From: Bacteroidales bacterium
GTDB taxonomy: Bacteria; Bacteroidota; Bacteroidia; Bacteroidales; UBA932
NCBI GenBank assembly: GCA_024398095.1
Contig: JAKSJK010000015.1
Span: 1 to 38,009, forward strand
Direction of reading: 5' to 3'
DNA length: 38,009 nucleotides
The notes beneath the pieces are model-generated. The model searched no databases, was not told the DNA's origin, and worked only from the letters and a program-made list of their open reading frames with translations. This document shows positions 18,944-26,930 of the stretch, piece after piece. Positions within the stretch are counted from its first letter, which is position 1. Each line of letters starts with the position of its first letter. The translations under genes and the position numbers were made by a program.

Positions 18944-20383
18944 TTATTCCAGGATGCTGAGCTTAAGGTTGCTTATCTTCCAGTGGGCATTGCCGTTGTT
19001 TCCGCCATTGTACTCGAAGTAAATGTCGTACGGTCCGGTTCCGATTCCAGTCAGGTCGAAGATCATGGTGGTGTGACCGCTCGCTTTTGAACCGCTTTGT
19101 ACAAAATTCGTGGTGGTGATTTTTGGATAGGTAGTACTATTGTTGGTATAGTTGACACCTTCGCCATTTGCCGGTTGATTGTAGAGAATATGATTCAGAG
19201 GTGTAAAAGTTTTATCTCCGTCGCGTAAAGTCTGGCGGACACTGATAATAATGAGATCCTTGGAGTTTCCGACCTCGAAATCCCACTCGAGCTTGAGTAC
19301 TGTCGAAGGATTCAGATCCAGTTTCTCATATACCACGTTCTGGCCCTTCTTACCAACAAAATCGTAGCCTCCTTCACCGTCAACGACAACCTCATGCGCC
19401 TTCGGGATCATGCTGACTCTATAAGTATAGGTGTAGCCAGGCTTCCATCTGTGACCTGCAGCAGAAACTGCCATTGTGTCCTGATGTTTGGTACCATTGC
19501 TATCGGTAGTGACGAAGGTCATCTCTATCTTTGCACTGCTGCCGAGAGTCTGAGGAATGAAGAAGAACATCTTTTCTTCGTCCGCCTGAAGCATGTCCTT
19601 GGTAACGAAATAACCCTTTTCAAGATTCTGGCTGAAGGTACCCAAAGGAGAGCCGGACAGATTCCAGTTGAAGCCAGCCTTGCTGTTTCCGCTTACGCTG
19701 CAGGTACCGCTTGTTGCGACATCGATGATCCTTACATTGACTACCTCGGAGCCGGCCGGCAGCAGACGGATATCAAACCTCACGGCAGCCAGGGCATGAT
19801 ACATGTGTACATCAAAATCGCCGCCTTCGCCATCTTTATAGGTTGAGGTACTGTATGCAATCACTATATCCTTCTGGTCATCAGGCGAAGCCGGGGTCTG
19901 ATAGGAGAAGCTGGCATTGCCTGACGCTCCGGCAGCCAGGGAAAGATTCTCCGGCTTGTAGCACCAGAAATGAAACGGGATGTCATTGAGCCAGTAGTAT
20001 GGCTCGCCGCCGGTAGAGAGTATAGATCCATCAGGGTTCAAGACTCCCCCGTCGATATATTTCTGAGGAAAGTTTTCGACTGATTTTCCAAGATAGGCAT
20101 CCACCTTGGCAGAACCGAAGTTGGCAGTTGTATAGAGCGAGCCCTTGGTCAAAGGAGCGTTTTCGATCGACTCAGAAGCGATCAGATCAATACGGAAATC
20201 GCCTGCAGTCTCAGAGGCAACAAGTTCCTCAGAAGGCGACAGTGACGCCTTCGTCTTCACATTTGCTTCGGTATTGACATTGGCTTTGATCACATCCGAA
20301 CCAAGAGTGGCAAAGATTTCCTTCTGACATGATACAGCCGAGAACACAATCGTAGCGGCCATGAGGATTTTCAAAGTCTTCAT
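18944..20383 (-). CDS. Fimbrillin family (Mfa/FimA-like) lipoprotein
   Basis: 479 residues from 20383, where MKTLKILMAATIVFSAVSC forms a lipoprotein signal with lipobox A-V-S-C. An in-frame ATG 48 bp upstream (20431) would place 16 extra residues before the signal and lies inside the preceding small ORF. The mature part shows the Bacteroidales fimbrillin pattern: a Lys-Thr-Lys-Ala-Ser region after the lipid Cys (where proprotein cleavage occurs in pilins), APLTKGSLY, YYWLNDIPFHFWCY, and MYHALAAVRFDIRLLP. The C-terminal about 120 residues (from about 365) look like a separate beta-sandwich, with YDIYFEYNGG and WKISNLKL near the end. It may be a pilus tip or anchor subunit, or a stand-alone surface adhesin. 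A terminator follows. Confidence 0.85.
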   Translation of the reverse strand: MKTLKILMAATIVFSAVSCQKEIFATLGSDVIKANVNTEANVKTKASLSPSEELVASETAGDFRIDLIASESIENAPLTKGSLYTTANFGSAKVDAYLGKSVENFPQKYIDGGVLNPDGSILSTGGEPYYWLNDIPFHFWCYKPENLSLAAGASGNASFSYQTPASPDDQKDIVIAYSTSTYKDGEGGDFDVHMYHALAAVRFDIRLLPAGSEVVNVRIIDVATSGTCSVSGNSKAGFNWNLSGSPLGTFSQNLEKGYFVTKDMLQADEEKMFFFIPQTLGSSAKIEMTFVTTDSNGTKHQDTMAVSAAGHRWKPGYTYTYRVSMIPKAHEVVVDGEGGYDFVGKKGQNVVYEKLDLNPSTVLKLEWDFEVGNSKDLIIISVRQTLRDGDKTFTPLNHILYNQPANGEGVNYTNNSTTYPKITTTNFVQSGSKASGHTTMIFDLTGIGTGPYDIYFEYNGGNNGNAHWKISNLKLSILE

Positions 20384-20387
20384 AGCG

Positions 20388-20567
20388 TTATTTGGATTGA
20401 AAATTGAAGGTAATATCGAGGAAGTCAGCATCGGGGTCTTCAGTCATATTTTCAATGACAACACCCTTCGCAGAAATCACTTCCTCCGTCTGCGAACCCT
20501 CCAGAAATGAGGATTCAGCCATCACAAAAAAAGAGTCCAATCGCATCGGACTATACACACGTTTCAT
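20388..20567 (-). CDS. Small 59-residue protein opening the fimbrillin transcript (hypothetical)
   Basis: 59 codons starting MKRVYSPMRLDSFFVMAESS and ending LDITFNFQSK. Its stop is 4 bp before the fimbrillin ATG, and it is the first gene after an excellent promoter, so it is very likely translated and coupled to the fimbrillin. No signal peptide, no Cys, acidic C-terminal half (TEDPDADFLD). I do not recognise the family. A cytosolic helper or leader-type regulator of the fimbrillin are possible roles, but this is speculation. Confidence 0.65.
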   Translation of the reverse strand: MKRVYSPMRLDSFFVMAESSFLEGSQTEEVISAKGVVIENMTEDPDADFLDITFNFQSK

Positions 20568-20670: not shown

Positions 20671-21609
20671 CTAAAGAGTTGACAGACAAGTCTGTATATT
20701 AGCCTCAATTTTAGCGGAATCATAGTCTTCACGCACAAATGGCTCGCCTACAATCTGCTCGTAAAGCTCGACATAGCGATCTGTGATACCGGCAACAACC
20801 TCAGGTGTCATCTCCGGAACCTTCTGGCCTTCCTGGCCCTGGAAACCGCCAGCCATGAGCCACTCGCGTACGAACTCCTTGGAGAGCTGCCTCTGGTGTT
20901 CACCCTTTGCAAGACGCTCTTCGTAGCCCTCGGCATAGAAATAGCGTGAAGAGTCCGGGGTGTGAACCTCATCCATGAGGTAGATCACGCCGTCCTTCTT
21001 GCCGAACTCATACTTGGTGTCCACGAGGATGAGTCCCTGCTTTGCAGCAATCTCGGTACCGCGCTGGAAGATTGCGAGAGTGTACTTCTCGAGCTCTGCG
21101 TAATCCTCTGCGGAAACGAGTCCGGAAGCGATGATCTCCTCACGGGAGATATCCTCATCGTGACCCTCTGCAGCCTTGGAGGTTGGGGTGATGATAGGAT
21201 GTGGGAACTTCTGGTTTTCAACCATTCCCTCTGGAAGCTCGACACCGCAGAGTGTGCGCTTGCCTGCCTTGTACTCTCTCCATGCGTGACCTGCGAGATA
21301 GCCGCGTACGACCATCTCCACCTTGAACGGCTCACATTTGTGGCCGATGGTGACTGCTGGATCCGGAACAGCTATCTTCCAGTTAGGAAGGATATCGGCG
21401 GTTGCATCGAGGAACTTGGCGGCAATGCGGTTGAGCACCTGGCCCTTGAAAGGAATACCCTCTGGCAGAACCACGTCAAACGCTGAAATACGGTCAGAAA
21501 CGACCATCACGAGATACTTGTCATCGATGTCGTAAACATCGCGGACCTTGCCGACATACTTGCCAACCTGCTTAGGGAAGTTGAAGTCGGACTTTACGAG
21601 TGCTTTCAT
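20671..21609 (-). CDS. purC: Phosphoribosylaminoimidazole-succinocarboxamide (SAICAR) synthase
   Basis: 312 residues, the longer SAICAR synthetase form (E. coli PurC is about 237). It joins CAIR and aspartate with ATP in purine synthesis. Motifs: [30 protein letters not shown] at the N-terminus (read as GKVRDVYD and SDRISAFD), the central [17 protein letters not shown], and [13 protein letters not shown] with [15 protein letters not shown], the ATP/metal site. It is the last gene of the purT-pyr operon, 21 bp after pyrB, and is followed by an intrinsic terminator. Confidence 0.97.
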
Positions 21610-21630: not shown

Positions 21631-22710
21631 TTACTTGATCTTGCTTTCGCAGTAGACGCAGTGGAGTTCGCCGTTCTCATCGCGTCGTACCAGATGATCC
21701 ACATTCTCCACATTGGAGATGCACTTGCGGTTAGGGCAGACATACTCTCCCTTGATGGCATCTGAAGGACCGTTGAAGTGTACGGCAGGATCCTGCTTTG
21801 CCCACTCGAGGAGCTTCACGATGAGAGCCATACGCACGAATTTGCCGTTCTCAACCTGGCGGAAATATGCTGCACGCGGATCTTCGTCCACTTCCTTGAG
21901 AATCTCGTTGACGCGTGGAAGCGGGTGGAGTACAACCATGGACTGCTTTGCGAGAGCCATCTTGGCGTTGTCGAGCACGAAGCTGTCCTTCACTCTCTCG
22001 AACTCCGCCTCGTCGAGGAATCTTTCCTTCTGCACACGGGTCATGTAAAGGACATCGAGATCGGCCATCACGGATTCCATATTGTCAACTTCCATGTAGT
22101 CAATACCATAGCGGTCACAAACCTCATACTTCATGTAGCCTGGGAGCTGAAGCTCTTCAGGGGCGATGAGTACGACCTTGATGCCCTCATAGCGGGACAG
22201 GGCCTTGATAAGTGAATGAACAGTACGGCCGAACTTGAGGTCGCCGCAGAAGCCTATGGTGAAATTATCCAGGCGGCCGAGCTCACGCTTGATGGTGAGG
22301 AGGTCGGTAAGAGTCTGGGTAGGATGCGCATGGCTGCCGTCACCTGCATTGATCACAGGAATGGTAGAAACCCTGGTGGCATTGAGAGGAGCTCCCTCGA
22401 TAGGATGGCGCATCGCGATGATGTCAGCGAAGCAGCTGATCACGCGGGTGGTATCCTCGATGGTCTCACCCTTTGAAACGGAGGTGTTGCGGGCGTCGGA
22501 AAAACCGATCACATTGCCACCGAGTTCCATCATTGCGGATGTGAAGCTCAGACGCGTTCTGGTGGATGGTTCATAGAAAAGAGTAGCGAGCTTCTTTCCC
22601 TTGCAGGCGCCTGCATAGCGGTCGCGGTGTGCGACGATATCCTCACCGAGAGCGACGATTTCGTCTATTTCGCTCTTGCTGAGATCAAAAGGATCAATAA
22701 GATGTTTCAT
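21631..22710 (-). CDS. pyrB: Aspartate carbamoyltransferase with a C-terminal PyrI-type zinc ribbon
   Basis: 359 residues. Residues 1-310 are a complete catalytic chain: S49-T-R-T52 for carbamoyl phosphate, K80 of the mobile loop (SVSKGET), H129 in HAHPTQ, R162 in FGRTVH, R225 and HPLPR (262-266). The E. coli chain ends near 311. Here about 48 residues follow with C325-x4-C330 and C351-x2-C354, plus NRKCISN and CVYCESK, the zinc-binding half of the regulatory chain PyrI. The N-terminal nucleotide-binding domain of PyrI is missing, and no pyrI gene lies nearby. In E. coli that zinc domain makes the contact with catalytic chains. I infer a self-assembled enzyme with no CTP/ATP control through PyrI. 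The gene is preceded by pyrE (14 bp) and followed by purC. Confidence 0.97.
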   Translation of the reverse strand: MKHLIDPFDLSKSEIDEIVALGEDIVAHRDRYAGACKGKKLATLFYEPSTRTRLSFTSAMMELGGNVIGFSDARNTSVSKGETIEDTTRVISCFADIIAMRHPIEGAPLNATRVSTIPVINAGDGSHAHPTQTLTDLLTIKRELGRLDNFTIGFCGDLKFGRTVHSLIKALSRYEGIKVVLIAPEELQLPGYMKYEVCDRYGIDYMEVDNMESVMADLDVLYMTRVQKERFLDEAEFERVKDSFVLDNAKMALAKQSMVVLHPLPRVNEILKEVDEDPRAAYFRQVENGKFVRMALIVKLLEWAKQDPAVHFNGPSDAIKGEYVCPNRKCISNVENVDHLVRRDENGELHCVYCESKIK

Positions 22711-22724
22711 CGATCAACAGTATA

Positions 22725-23366
22725 TTACTTTATCCAACTTTCGTCTGAAGGATTGTCGCGGAAAGAAAGGATGCGCTCCTTCCAGCCCTCGGCAATATAC
22801 TTCTCCTCCTCTGCAACCTCTACGAGTGCGTCGAGGTCGGAAAGAGACACATTCTTTGCATTTGCTGCGGCAAGCCTCTCGATACCCTTCTTCATGCCGT
22901 AGGTGAAAATGCTGGCAACGCCGAGCACCTCAGCACCCTCTTCACGCAGAGCCTCGACTACGTCGATGCAGCTGCCGCCGGTAGAGATAAGGTCCTCGAT
23001 CACAACAACCTTGGTACCAGGGGCCATCTTGCCCTCGATACGGTTTGCGCGGCCGTGATCTTTGGCACTTCCGCGTACATAGCCCATAGGCATATTGAGC
23101 AGGGAAGCAGTGATTGCGGCATGTGCGATGCCTGCGGTACTGGTACCCATGAGCATCTCAGCCTCAGGGTATTCCTCCTTGACTACAGCTGCCAGGCTCT
23201 CCTCGATCACATCCCTTACGGCCGGAGCCGAAAGAGTAAGGCGGTTGTCACAATAGATAGGGCTTTTAATGCCGCTAGCCCAGGTAAACGGCTGCTCCGG
23301 ACGAAGGAATACTGCCTGGATGGAAAGCAGATTCTTCGCGATTTCTTTTTTGCTGGAACGTTTCAT
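22725..23366 (-). CDS. pyrE: Orotate phosphoribosyltransferase
   Basis: 213 residues. It transfers ribose phosphate from PRPP to orotate, giving OMP. The PRPP loop is VVVIEDLISTGGS (about 120-132) and the catalytic flexible loop is KDHGRANRIEG (103-113). IYCDNRL (37-43) lies at the orotate pocket. The start is 5 bp after the pyrF stop, within the pyrimidine operon. Confidence 0.97.
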   Translation of the reverse strand: MKRSSKKEIAKNLLSIQAVFLRPEQPFTWASGIKSPIYCDNRLTLSAPAVRDVIEESLAAVVKEEYPEAEMLMGTSTAGIAHAAITASLLNMPMGYVRGSAKDHGRANRIEGKMAPGTKVVVIEDLISTGGSCIDVVEALREEGAEVLGVASIFTYGMKKGIERLAAANAKNVSLSDLDALVEVAEEEKYIAEGWKERILSFRDNPSDESWIK

Positions 23367-23371
23367 ATATT

Positions 23372-24073
23372 TTATTCTCCTAAAAATTCATTTACGCATC
23401 TCATGTACGCAGCCACAGGATCGGCAGCCGCGGTAATAGGGCGGCCGACAACGATGTAGTCGGAACCGATCTCGCGTGCCTTGGCAGGAGTGGTGATACG
23501 TACCTGGTCGTCTGCAGCCGCATCAGCGAAACGGATGCCCGGAGTCACGGTCATGAAGCCGGCACCGCAGCGTCCCTTCACGAGAGAGGCCTCAAGCGGT
23601 GAGCAGACAACGCCGTCCAGACCAGCAGCTGCAGCATTGGCAGCGTACTGAGAAATGGTGTCGGCGATGGTGGCGTTTATGAGCAATTCCTTCTGCATTC
23701 TCTCCTCGCTGGTAGAGGTCAGCTGGGTAACTGCAATAAGCTCTGGGCGGGTGCCGTCGGCACGGGTAAGACCTTCGAGAGCAGCCTTCATCATATCGAT
23801 GGTACCTGCAGCATGCACGTTGGTCATATCCACATCAAGCGCGCTGAGCACAGCCATGGTCTTGCGCACAGTGTTAGGGATGTCGTGAAGCTTGAGGTCG
23901 AGGAAGATCTTGTGTCCCCTCTTCTTGATTTCGCGCACGATCTCCGGACCGGCTGCGTAGAAAAGCTCCATACCGATCTTCACGAATGGTTTGCGGCCCT
24001 GGAACTTGTCCAGGAACTCAAGTGTCGCAGCTGCGCTGCTGAAGTCACATGCAATGATAACGTCCTTTGCCAT
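23372..24073 (-). CDS. pyrF: Orotidine 5'-phosphate decarboxylase
   Basis: 233 residues, the short bacterial class. It decarboxylates OMP to UMP. The catalytic array D59-x-K61-x-x-D64 is in [14 protein letters not shown], and the C-terminal phosphate-binding segment is [16 protein letters not shown]. It begins 1 bp after the pyrD stop. Many Bacteroidetes carry a longer, roughly 270-residue type 2 enzyme; the motif here fits type 1. Confidence 0.96.
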
Positions 24074-24074
24074 A

Positions 24075-24989
24075 TTACTTAACTATACCTATTATTTCGT
24101 TGAGTGAATTGATTCCCAGTCTTTCCATCACCTTCGGGAGATCTTCTATTATCTCCTTGCAGGCAAATGGGTTACGAAGGTTCTCGGCGCCCACCTGAAC
24201 GGCAGTTGCGCCTGCCATCATCATCTCGATGACATCCTCCGCAGTGGCAACTCCGCCGCAGCCCATCACAGGAATGGAGCAGGCATTCGCCACCTGGTAG
24301 ACCATCCTGACAGCTACAGGGAATACAGCCCTGCCGGAAAAACCGCCCATCTTGTTGGCGATCACCGGACGTCTGCGGGCAATATCGATGCGCATACCCA
24401 GCATGGTATTGATGAGGGTTATACCATCCGCACCGGCCTCTTCACAGGCCTTTGCGATGGAAACGATGTCAGTCACATTAGGACTCAGTTTCACGAACAC
24501 CGGCTTTGTAGTAACGGCCTTCACAGCCCTGGTTACCTCGGCAGCAGCCTCAGCCGATGTGCCGAAAGCCATGCCCCCGTTGTGTACATTCGGGCAAGAC
24601 ACATTGACCTCGAGGATCTGCACATCGTCCACCTTGTCCATCTTCGAGCAGCACTCGACATATTCTTCGACAGCAAAGCCGCTGATGTTTGCAATTATCG
24701 GCTTGGAGTAGACCTTGCGCAGGGCCGGGATCTCGTGGGCGATAACAGCATCCACACCCGGGTTCTGCAGGCCCACGGAATTGATCATGCCCATCTCGCA
24801 CTCGGCGATACGTGGAGTCGGATTGCCGAAACGCGCGTCCCTGGTGGTTCCCTTGATGGAAATTGCGCCGAGGCAGTTGATGTCGTAAACCTCGGCCATC
24901 TCGAGACCGAAGCCGAAAGTACCGCTGGCTGGCACGACAGGATTGTCGAGACCTACGCCGCAGAGATTAACGCTGAGATCCTTTACCAT
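24075..24989 (-). CDS. pyrD: Dihydroorotate dehydrogenase B (NAD+), catalytic subunit
   Basis: 304 residues of the class 1B enzyme, which oxidises dihydroorotate to orotate with FMN and passes electrons to PyrK. Catalytic Cys132 is in [11 protein letters not shown]; the FMN/substrate sites are [22 protein letters not shown] and the C-terminal [13 protein letters not shown]. The last codons of pyrK overlap its start by 7 bp, which fits subunits of one complex made in equal amounts. Cytoplasmic, NAD-linked. Confidence 0.97.
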
Positions 24990-25708
24990 ATTACCTCCTT
25001 CCTGTCAAACACAGGTCCGTCCTTGCAAACTCTTTTGGCTCCGAGCATGGTCTTGCAGGTGCAGCCCATGCAGATGCCGGTGCCGCAGCCCATTCTTTCC
25101 TCGAAGCTGTACTGGCCTTCGGTGCAGACCTTGCCTTCCAGTGCGCGGAACATAGGCATCGGGCCGCAGGCGTAGAAGAAGTCGTAGTCCACGGCAGGCA
25201 GGGCGTCGGTCACAAAACCCTTCACGCCCAGGGAGCCATCTGCGGTTGCGACAGTAACCTTCGCACCAAGAGCCTCAAACTCCGCCACATAAATAACCTC
25301 ATCGGCCTTATTGAAGCCCAGAATCACATTGACCGGCTTGCCGACTTCGATGAGTTTCTTGGCCAGATAGTACATTGGAGCGGTGCCGATACCGCCGCCT
25401 ACGAGCAGCGGCTTTGAACCGGCGGCCTCGAGATTGAATCCGTTGCCGAGCCCGGTCAGCACGTCCAGTCTCTCCCCTGCCGTCATGGCTGCCATCTGGG
25501 AAGTACCCTTGCCTACAACCTTGTAGAGCAGAGTCAGCACGCCAGCGTTCCAGTCGCACACGGAGATAGGACGACGGAGAAAACGGCCGTCGAGGGCGAT
25601 GTTCACGAACTGGCCAGGCCTCTGTTCGGCACAGCCTGAGAGCTTCATCTCCCAGACGGTCGCATTGACCTGACGGTTCGAAATTATTGTGAGTTTTTCT
25701 CTATTCAT
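24983..25708 (-). CDS. pyrK: Dihydroorotate dehydrogenase B, electron-transfer subunit
   Basis: 241 residues. FAD-binding N-terminus with RRPISVCDW, NAD-binding GGGIGTAPMYYLAKKL, and a [2Fe-2S] cluster set C208-x4-C213-x2-C216-x11-C228 near the C-terminus, with an additional Cys218. It moves electrons from PyrD to NAD+. It overlaps pyrC by 8 bp upstream and pyrD by 7 bp downstream. Confidence 0.97.
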   Translation of the reverse strand: MNREKLTIISNRQVNATVWEMKLSGCAEQRPGQFVNIALDGRFLRRPISVCDWNAGVLTLLYKVVGKGTSQMAAMTAGERLDVLTGLGNGFNLEAAGSKPLLVGGGIGTAPMYYLAKKLIEVGKPVNVILGFNKADEVIYVAEFEALGAKVTVATADGSLGVKGFVTDALPAVDYDFFYACGPMPMFRALEGKVCTEGQYSFEERMGCGTGICMGCTCKTMLGAKRVCKDGPVFDRKEVIW

Positions 25709-26930
25709 ATATAAGTTTGCCGTCTTTATATGTTCTGACGCAGCGTCCCTGCACCTTCCAGCCGTCGAACGGAGTGCTGTGGCCCATGGACACGAAGTCT
25801 TTGCTGTCTATTACATATTCGCCGTCGAGGTCGAATACGGCGATATCTGCCGGCTGTCCAGGCTCGAGAGCGCCCCCGAAGCCGAAGATACGGCGAGGAT
25901 TGTCGCACATCAGTTCGAACAGTTTGCCAAGACTGATCACACCCGGCTTGACGAGTTTCGTATACATTACCGGGAAGGCAGTTTCAAGACCGACTATACC
26001 CATCAGGCTCTTGTCGTAGCCACGGGACTTCTCTTCTGCCGTATGAGGAGCGTGGTCGGTGGCAATCACCTCCACTGTTCCGTCCTGGATACCGGCAATA
26101 AGAGCATCCCTGTCGGCGGCTTCCCGCAGTGGCGGGTTCATCCTGAAGCGGCCCTCGTCATTGCGATCCGCCTGGGTCAGGGTAAGATAATGCGGTGCAG
26201 TTTCGCAGCTTACGCGTGCACCGGCAGCCTTGGCCTTGCGGATAGCTTCCACACTTTCCTTTGTGCTGACATGGCAGACATGGTAGCGGCAGCCGATCTC
26301 AGTTGCCATTTCGGCATCCCTTGCCACCTGCACCCACTCGCTTTCCGGTCCGAATGGCACCTGGTCCATATCCTCGCAGTGAGCAGAGATAACGACATCC
26401 TCCCTGAGAGCCTGCATCATGGCCTCCTTCATGACATCGGCAGTCTGGATACCGCTGCCGTCGTCAGAGAAACCTGCGACCTTATCCTTGAGAGCTGCCA
26501 TATCCACTACAGCACCGCCCTTGCGGCCGGAAGTGATGGTGGCAAAAGGACGCACGTCCACCTTTGCCTGCTCGGATCTTATAAGGTCAAGCTGTACCTG
26601 GAGTGTCTCAGGGGCGTCCGGAGCCGGATTGAGGTTAGGCATCGGACAGACAAGGGTATATCCACCCTTCGCCGCCGCTGCAGAACCGCTCGCGATAGTC
26701 TCCTTGGCACTGAATCCAGGCTCGCGGAAATGAACATGGACATCGACCAGGCCGTAGCTGACTACGCAACCGGTGATGTCCACAACTTCCGCCTCTGGAT
26801 GGGCTTCTGGAGCTATATTCTCAGAAATGAGAGTGATGACGCCGTCTGAAAACAGAATATCGGAAGGGAACAACTCGCCTCTTTGAACGATCTGTCCACC
26901 TTTGAGGATGATGCTTCCGTTTTCTGCCAT
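25701..26930 (-). CDS. pyrC: Dihydroorotase (class I type)
   Basis: 409 residues of the amidohydrolase family; closes carbamoyl-aspartate to dihydroorotate. Metal site H65-x-H67 in DVHVHFREPG, then VVISAHCED, YHVCHVST and the metal Asp in VIATDHAPHTAEEK. The carboxylated Lys common in this class is not obvious where I looked. Length and motif order match the class I enzymes of Gram-positive and Bacteroidetes genomes rather than the shorter E. coli form. It is 5 bp after the purT stop. Confidence 0.96.
   Translation of the reverse strand: MAENGSIILKGGQIVQRGELFPSDILFSDGVITLISENIAPEAHPEAEVVDITGCVVSYGLVDVHVHFREPGFSAKETIASGSAAAAKGGYTLVCPMPNLNPAPDAPETLQVQLDLIRSEQAKVDVRPFATITSGRKGGAVVDMAALKDKVAGFSDDGSGIQTADVMKEAMMQALREDVVISAHCEDMDQVPFGPESEWVQVARDAEMATEIGCRYHVCHVSTKESVEAIRKAKAAGARVSCETAPHYLTLTQADRNDEGRFRMNPPLREAADRDALIAGIQDGTVEVIATDHAPHTAEEKSRGYDKSLMGIVGLETAFPVMYTKLVKPGVISLGKLFELMCDNPRRIFGFGGALEPGQPADIAVFDLDGEYVIDSKDFVSMGHSTPFDGWKVQGRCVRTYKDGKLIYE

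Follow-up and report, generated by a model that had tools for sequence, protein, structure and literature searches.

A gene in the pyrimidine operon of a Bacteroidales bacterium was confirmed from its sequence to encode a complete aspartate carbamoyltransferase (ATCase) catalytic chain, followed by a single part of the regulatory chain PyrI, its zinc domain. ATCase is a textbook allosteric enzyme. The gene lies in a window of 38,009 nucleotides, which is the whole stretch of DNA that was analysed. The best explanation, with a probability of about 0.6, is that its product is a functional ATCase carrying only the zinc (coupling) domain of PyrI as a covalent appendix, i.e., a homotrimer with the domain docked on it and without control by CTP/ATP. 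The fused gene, its parts and its neighbours are the following:

21631..22710, minus strand: fused gene, aspartate carbamoyltransferase catalytic chain plus PyrI zinc domain, 359 aa
21808..22710, minus strand: catalytic core, residues 1-301 (OTCace_N 2-141, OTCace 149-298, TIGR00670)
22396..22398, minus strand: Glu105, equivalent of E. coli cGlu109, the partner of rAsn111 (contact as given in the accessible part of PMC6056424)
21742..21807, minus strand: poorly conserved linker, residues 302-323 (mean pairwise identity 0.315)
21640..21741, minus strand: PyrI zinc domain, residues 324-357 (PyrI_C 7.9e-9)
21736..21738, minus strand: Cys325, presumed zinc ligand, invariant in alignment A1
21730..21732, minus strand: Asn327, equivalent of rAsn111, Asn in 122 of 123 fused tails
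21721..21723, minus strand: Cys330, presumed zinc ligand, invariant in A1
21658..21660, minus strand: Cys351, presumed zinc ligand, invariant in A1
21649..21651, minus strand: Cys354, presumed zinc ligand, invariant in A1
20671..21609, minus strand: purC (SAICAR synthetase), first gene after the fused gene
22725..23366, minus strand: pyrE (orotate phosphoribosyltransferase), a phosphoribosyltransferase domain named from its context
23372..24073, minus strand: pyrF (orotidine 5'-phosphate decarboxylase)
24075..24989, minus strand: pyrD (dihydroorotate dehydrogenase)
24983..25708, minus strand: pyrK (iron-sulfur subunit of dihydroorotate dehydrogenase B)
25701..26930, minus strand: pyrC (dihydroorotase)

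The reading frame of the fused gene starts with ATG and is free of internal stops. Its product matches OTCace_N (3.5e-45), OTCace (2.1e-28) and, over residues 319-358, PyrI_C (Pfam PF02748; 7.9e-9, 35.7 bits against a cut-off of 23.4). The PyrI N-terminal domain (PF01948) is absent from its Pfam matches. An earlier note on this DNA had claimed that the catalytic chain is complete and runs on into a PyrI zinc domain with the motif C-x4-C-x20-C-x2-C, and that the allosteric domain is missing. The motif corresponds to Cys325, Cys330, Cys351 and Cys354. Alignment A1 joins the window with 59 of 80 loci from named genome contigs; each of its 60 members matches PyrI_C, the four cysteines are invariant in it, and both claims were borne out. 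The protein scores 330.5 bits with the equivalog TIGR00670 for the ATCase catalytic chain, above the cut-off of 236.95. It stays far below the cut-off of TIGR00240 for the whole PyrI regulatory chain including the allosteric domain (24.5 bits, cut-off 148.55), and below that of NF009916 for the full PyrB-PyrI fusion (114.8 bits, cut-off 800). The positions which we take to form the active site (Ser52, Thr53, Arg54, Thr55, Ser80, Lys84, Arg105, His134, Gln137, Arg167, Arg229, Gln231, Pro266-Leu267-Pro268) are all unchanged in the window and 100% conserved in 41 fused rows. When the 44-residue tail alone was compared with the PDB, the ten best matches were ATCase chains of regulatory-chain length (E 0.0043-0.099), eight named regulatory chain and two named only aspartate transcarbamoylase. 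With matches up to E 10 admitted, there were 14 in total, and 3 of the weaker ones are neuroplastin.

The fused gene is the last of an operon with the order pyrC-pyrK-pyrD-pyrF-pyrE-pyrB, in which neighbouring genes overlap or are separated by at most 14 bases. No pyrI is present in the window at the place where a pyrB-pyrI operon would have one. Instead, purC begins 21 bases after the fused pyrB, in agreement with the statement in the earlier note that pyrI does not follow. Further along, between pta and purC, a 495-aa open reading frame (18944-20431, minus strand) is without a Pfam match at 1e-5.

The earlier note had named a separate full PyrI that binds the enzyme as one finding that would overturn its reading. 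A separate PyrI was sought in the own genome and in 46 same-genus genomes with the fused kind of tail, and did not appear. Within the 149 contigs (2.45 Mb) of the own genome, PyrI_C exceeds its cut-off only in the fused gene itself, and no PyrI N-terminal domain exceeds its own; as this assembly is 82.2% complete, the absence there is not proof when taken alone. In the 46 genomes, no second PyrI_C lies above the cut-off. PyrI N-terminal domains were searched in 61 genomes, and the 13 of them that carry the fusion have none. A regulatory chain with a nucleotide-binding domain was thus found neither in the own genome nor in these 13. Two candidates for a hidden PyrI were ruled out by their scores: C71:13646, the sole match to the N-terminal domain in the own genome (15.1 bits, cut-off 25), and C95:16906 for PyrI_C (13 bits, cut-off 23.4).

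As for the contact between the two parts, the E. coli enzyme provides the reference. There, the R state has a bond between rAsn111 and cGlu109, and the Asn111Ala exchange abolishes both cooperativity (homotropic) and the effector (heterotropic) responses, according to PMC6056424. In addition, cAsn132, beside Arg167, meets rGlu142 and rLys143, as far as described in the available text of PMC6981877. Among 123 fused tails, which are not independent because the 80 named-contig loci and 40 other same-genus loci overlap in source genomes (L130 and G089:C22, for instance, lie on contigs of equal length), the rAsn111 equivalent is Asn in 122; the four cysteines, Ile115 and Glu119 are conserved at 100% and Tyr140 at 99%. 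At r142, Asp (57%) and Glu (42%) prevail. The rLys143 position holds Ser in 74%, Ala in 14% and Thr in 8% of the tails; Lys is found there in 88% of 34 PyrI. The position of E. coli rSer116 is Ser in 51% and Cys in 49% of the tails, and Thr in 97% and Cys in 3% of the 34 PyrI.

The catalytic partner largely follows the presence of the zinc domain. cGlu109 is Glu or Asp in 97 of 97 PyrB rows having a zinc domain (43 fused and, counting E. coli, 54 with a separate PyrI), and it is replaced by Ala or Ser in 18 of the 23 PyrB rows without one; the five that keep Glu are L153, L157, L162, L168 and L170. L192 (G246), whose PyrI lies about 3 kb away and outside the extracted stretch, was counted with the PyrI-bearing rows here and in the column counts, which leaves 23 PyrB-only rows. 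Fisher's test of fused against PyrB-only rows (41/41 vs 5/23) gives p 9e-12, a value uncorrected for relatedness, and the acid/non-acid trait at c109 changes only 3 times on the tree. The strongest evidence, c109, is a single position with a small number of independent branches behind it. Of 158 columns that are conserved elsewhere, the PyrB-only rows have lost 15. These include 5 of the 9 at c106-117 (p 0.0004, for a stretch picked after the columns had been seen), and the losses in this stretch mark a contact helix that decays once PyrI is lost.

The fused rows retain 8 of these 15 columns, no better than their own overall 110 of 158. cArg113 is replaced in 41/41 of them and cGlu117 retained in 25/41. 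The fused PyrBs of family f113 have Asp at c109 and Leu at c113. In the f2 PyrBs, which are unfused, cHis132 and cPhe165 are already present, and cArg113 and cGln133 are still present; cHis132 and cPhe165 are therefore not due to the fusion. Covariation between tail and core in the 123 fused rows (Neff 48) gave a weak signal for 10 contact columns against 129 others, with a one-sided p of 0.029 that is uncorrected for relatedness; the top covarying pair, c200-r142, lies outside the contact set. Judged by these residues, the anchor of the catalytic contact is kept and its surroundings are remodelled or partly relaxed. The conservation of cGlu109 and rAsn111 suggests that the zinc domain probably still docks at the old PyrI site. 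The suggestion in the earlier note of a regulatory-catalytic contact through the zinc domain gains indirect support from this pair, although residues around it, such as cArg113 and rLys143, have changed. Given the state of cArg113 and cGlu117, docking could be weaker or shifted.

Alternatives to a docked domain must be weighed against the conservation of the tail. In the fused proteins, mean pairwise identity is 0.776 in the core, 0.544 in the zinc part and 0.315 in the linker, with dN/dS values of 0.157, 0.327 and 0.341, respectively (1183 unsaturated of 7503 pairs). These values indicate that the zinc domain is under purifying selection. The lower conservation of the zinc part, the loss of cArg113 and the tail of G174, which lies in another frame, would also suit a remnant, namely the by-product of a deletion joining pyrB to the end of pyrI, tolerated, slowly decaying and roleless. 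It is an unlikely origin for a tail in which the four cysteines, Ile115 and Glu119 never vary (100%) and Asn111 and Tyr140 hardly do (99%), with a dN/dS well under 1 and a distribution over 46 of 151 genomes and a second family. Moreover, lower conservation is also seen in separate PyrI, where the zinc domain (identity 0.752 in 29 same-genus loci) lies below the allosteric domain (0.834).

The zinc ribbon might instead be a docking handle for a pathway enzyme, e.g., the PyrC of the operon or carbamoyl phosphate synthetase, and provide substrate channelling. pyrC stands in the same operon, the contact around cGlu109 is partly remodelled, and reviews describe class A ATCases that form complexes with dihydroorotase (PMC6022934; PMC4581275). 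However, the conserved tail residues are those facing the catalytic chain in E. coli, and cGlu109 is conserved along with the zinc domain, which makes such a handle quite improbable. A metal or redox switch, in which zinc loss or cysteine oxidation alters activity and replaces nucleotide control, seems very improbable. It would gain from the Cys right after Cys114-Ile, a fifth cysteine beside the zinc site that is present in 49% of fused tails vs 3% of 34 PyrI, but the window itself has Ser at this position, as do 51% of the tails.

The docked homotrimer is the preferred reading. Each ribbon would lie folded against a carbamoyl-phosphate domain, either that of its own chain or that of a neighbour, at the site that PyrI occupies in E. 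coli. Docked in this way, it may stabilise both the trimer and the region of the active site behind Arg167. Two trimers would not be bridged and CTP/ATP would be unable to act, because the allosteric domain, the maker of PyrI dimers, is absent. The enzyme would be non-cooperative and held in a fixed, probably R-like state, and control would fall to gene expression. rLys143, presumably a T-state contact between trimers, is mostly lost, and this suits an enzyme whose trimers stay unpaired.

The fusion is not confined to the window. In its genus (151 genomes), PyrI_C is found above the cut-off in 76 genomes, 46 of the fused kind and 30 with separate PyrI-sized frames. The 46 include G017 (fragment at a contig end), G174 (tail in another frame) and G166 (gene in two pieces). 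A PyrB match at 1e-25 is present in 102 of the 151. One further genome, G126, has a fused-type core whose match covers just residues 1-286, and no tail is seen there. At 23 loci of the genus, PyrB occurs in a genome without PyrI above the cut-off, the exception being G017, which also has the fused fragment. Its PyrB-only gene (G017:C9) and fused-gene fragment (G017:C133) are in one bin with 5% contamination, and G017 is probably a mixed bin. Compared with near-full-length unfused PyrBs from the same genus, the catalytic chain of the window reaches an identity of only 47-53%.

On named genome contigs, 80 loci were kept of 444 relatives, every one matched to residue 357 or beyond. Their labels are Bacteroidales, Bacteroidia or families and genera of these, and disagree among themselves; one of them reads Candidatus Cryptobacteroides avistercoris, and the genus of the window may be Cryptobacteroides. 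Locus L054 shares 95% identity with the window. In the order (295 genomes), 12 genomes match the fused protein at 1e-90. Besides the own genome, only two of these matches are full-length, both from one genus of family f113 (62-63% identity). The nearest unfused PyrBs in the order are those of f2 (58-60%). In 168 genomes of the order, PyrI_C lies, among the matches listed, in frames of at most 211 aa. In the phylum (395 genomes), no further match reached 1e-90. By these matches, the fusion is a clade in one genus and occurs also in a second family.

A PyrB match at 1e-25 is absent from 17 of 62 high-quality genomes (at least 90% complete), namely G005, G019, G023, G061, G069, G071, G078, G081, G094, G100, G105, G106, G112, G113, G129, G130 and G148. 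OMPdecase (PyrF) is matched at 1e-5 in 0/17 of them vs 4/4 comparison genomes, and six of the 17 sit in 5 places on a uvrB tree. Repeated loss of pyrimidine synthesis is probable.

The surroundings of pyrB give hints on its history. Among 180 extracted loci (L054-L233; 122 fused, 34 with PyrB next to PyrI and 24 with PyrB alone), pyrE stands directly before pyrB in at least 112 of the 122 fused loci. serC comes directly after in 29 of the 34 PyrB-PyrI loci and 21 of the 24 PyrB-only loci, and in 0 of the 122 fused ones. The PyrB-only state looks like an in-place loss of pyrI, because serC comes next in both unfused kinds. For instance, pyrI has apparently dropped out between pyrB and serC in L153 (PyrB-only) as compared with L134 (PyrB-PyrI), and the contact helix c106-117 changed afterwards. 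The pyrF type of the window occurs in 48 of the 151 genus genomes. These are every genome with a fused tail except G017 (45 of 46), plus G126, G022 and G120. In G022 (L184) and G120 (L186), pyrK-D-F-E is joined by an ordinary Bacteroidales-type PyrB-PyrI pair that replaces the fused gene, and the pyrF of G120 is 81% identical to that of the window. The pyrB place of the operon has therefore probably been exchanged. f2 as the state before fusion, with pyrB-pyrI inside the pyr operon, was rejected, since the operon-borne pairs proved to be those of G022 and G120, in the genus of the window. No other pyr genes were found in the 6-kb stretches around the f2 PyrBs.

Trees of PyrB and of a marker differ in the number of changes that they require. 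On the PyrB tree (120 rows, quick method), 43 fused rows group together with the two PyrBs of f2 at a support of 100; how deep this group lies is unsure because long branches meet at the E. coli root. One change suffices for the fused rows, with a support of only 63. The uvrB tree covers 60 of the 141 genomes with a match (20 fused, 20 PyrB-PyrI, 14 PyrB-only and 6 lacking PyrB) and requires 10 changes for the fused state, or 8 when only well-supported branches are counted. Movement of the fused operon between species, or its loss on many occasions, is therefore probable.

With 46 of 151 genus genomes, the fused PyrB is a known enzyme in a new form, beyond a single odd gene. In the literature searched, which left out most subscription journals, no PyrB fused to the zinc domain only was noticed. 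The role of the zinc domain apart from the nucleotide-binding domain has so far been probed with fragments and mutants. Full PyrI, the zinc domain only, or neither coexist in one genus and offer a natural three-way dissection of allostery. This contrast makes the domain's own role testable apart from nucleotide sensing; trimer stability, substrate affinity and the R/T balance are among the things it may contribute without nucleotide control. The loss of cGlu109 is confined to rows without a zinc domain. Furthermore, the fusion warns against taking every PyrB that lacks a pyrI gene for a plain class C trimer.

Bacterial ATCases are grouped in classes A, B and C in the available text of the reviews (PMC6022934; PMC4581275). 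The fused enzyme stands between class B and class C. Like the class B PyrB-PyrI dodecamer of E. coli, it has a homologous catalytic chain over residues 2-301, and its zinc domain is homologous to PyrI residues ~103-144, with the cGlu109/rAsn111 pair kept. Unlike that enzyme, it has no allosteric domain, no separate PyrI was found, the zinc domain is covalently fused, and rLys143 (mostly) and cArg113 are missing. A full PyrB-PyrI fusion is known in Thermotoga maritima. It is an allosteric enzyme according to the title of Chen et al. 1998, as cited in the accessible parts of PMC4581275 and PMC6022934. Both fusions have PyrB first and PyrI sequence at the C-terminus of one chain, but the allosteric domain is missing here (NF009916, 114.8 bits vs 800). 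Class A, a stable dodecamer with dihydroorotase, has a counterpart here only in the operon neighbourhood with pyrC.

Class C is the bare catalytic trimer, e.g., in Bacillus subtilis. The fused enzyme is like it in having no regulatory chain and in being probably a trimer without effector response. In contrast to class C, it has a conserved zinc domain (PyrI_C 319-358) and so falls outside that class; the true class C comparison is with the 23 PyrB-only rows of the same genus, mostly without cGlu109. The chances are about even that it represents a further class of bacterial ATCase, a homotrimer with a built-in zinc coupling domain as a permanent clamp and no allosteric domain, outside A, B and C as these are drawn in the reviewed excerpts. 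If so, it would be the natural counterpart, spread among gut Bacteroidales with the pyr operon, of an experiment that combined a catalytic trimer with a zinc fragment. Markby, Zhou and Schachman (1991) reportedly added a 70-residue zinc-binding fragment of PyrI to the E. coli catalytic trimer and obtained a stable complex with altered activity. The fused enzyme would share with that complex a catalytic trimer and a zinc domain in the absence of the allosteric domain. Their fragment was added in trans, whereas here the chain and the zinc domain share one gene and have evolved together.
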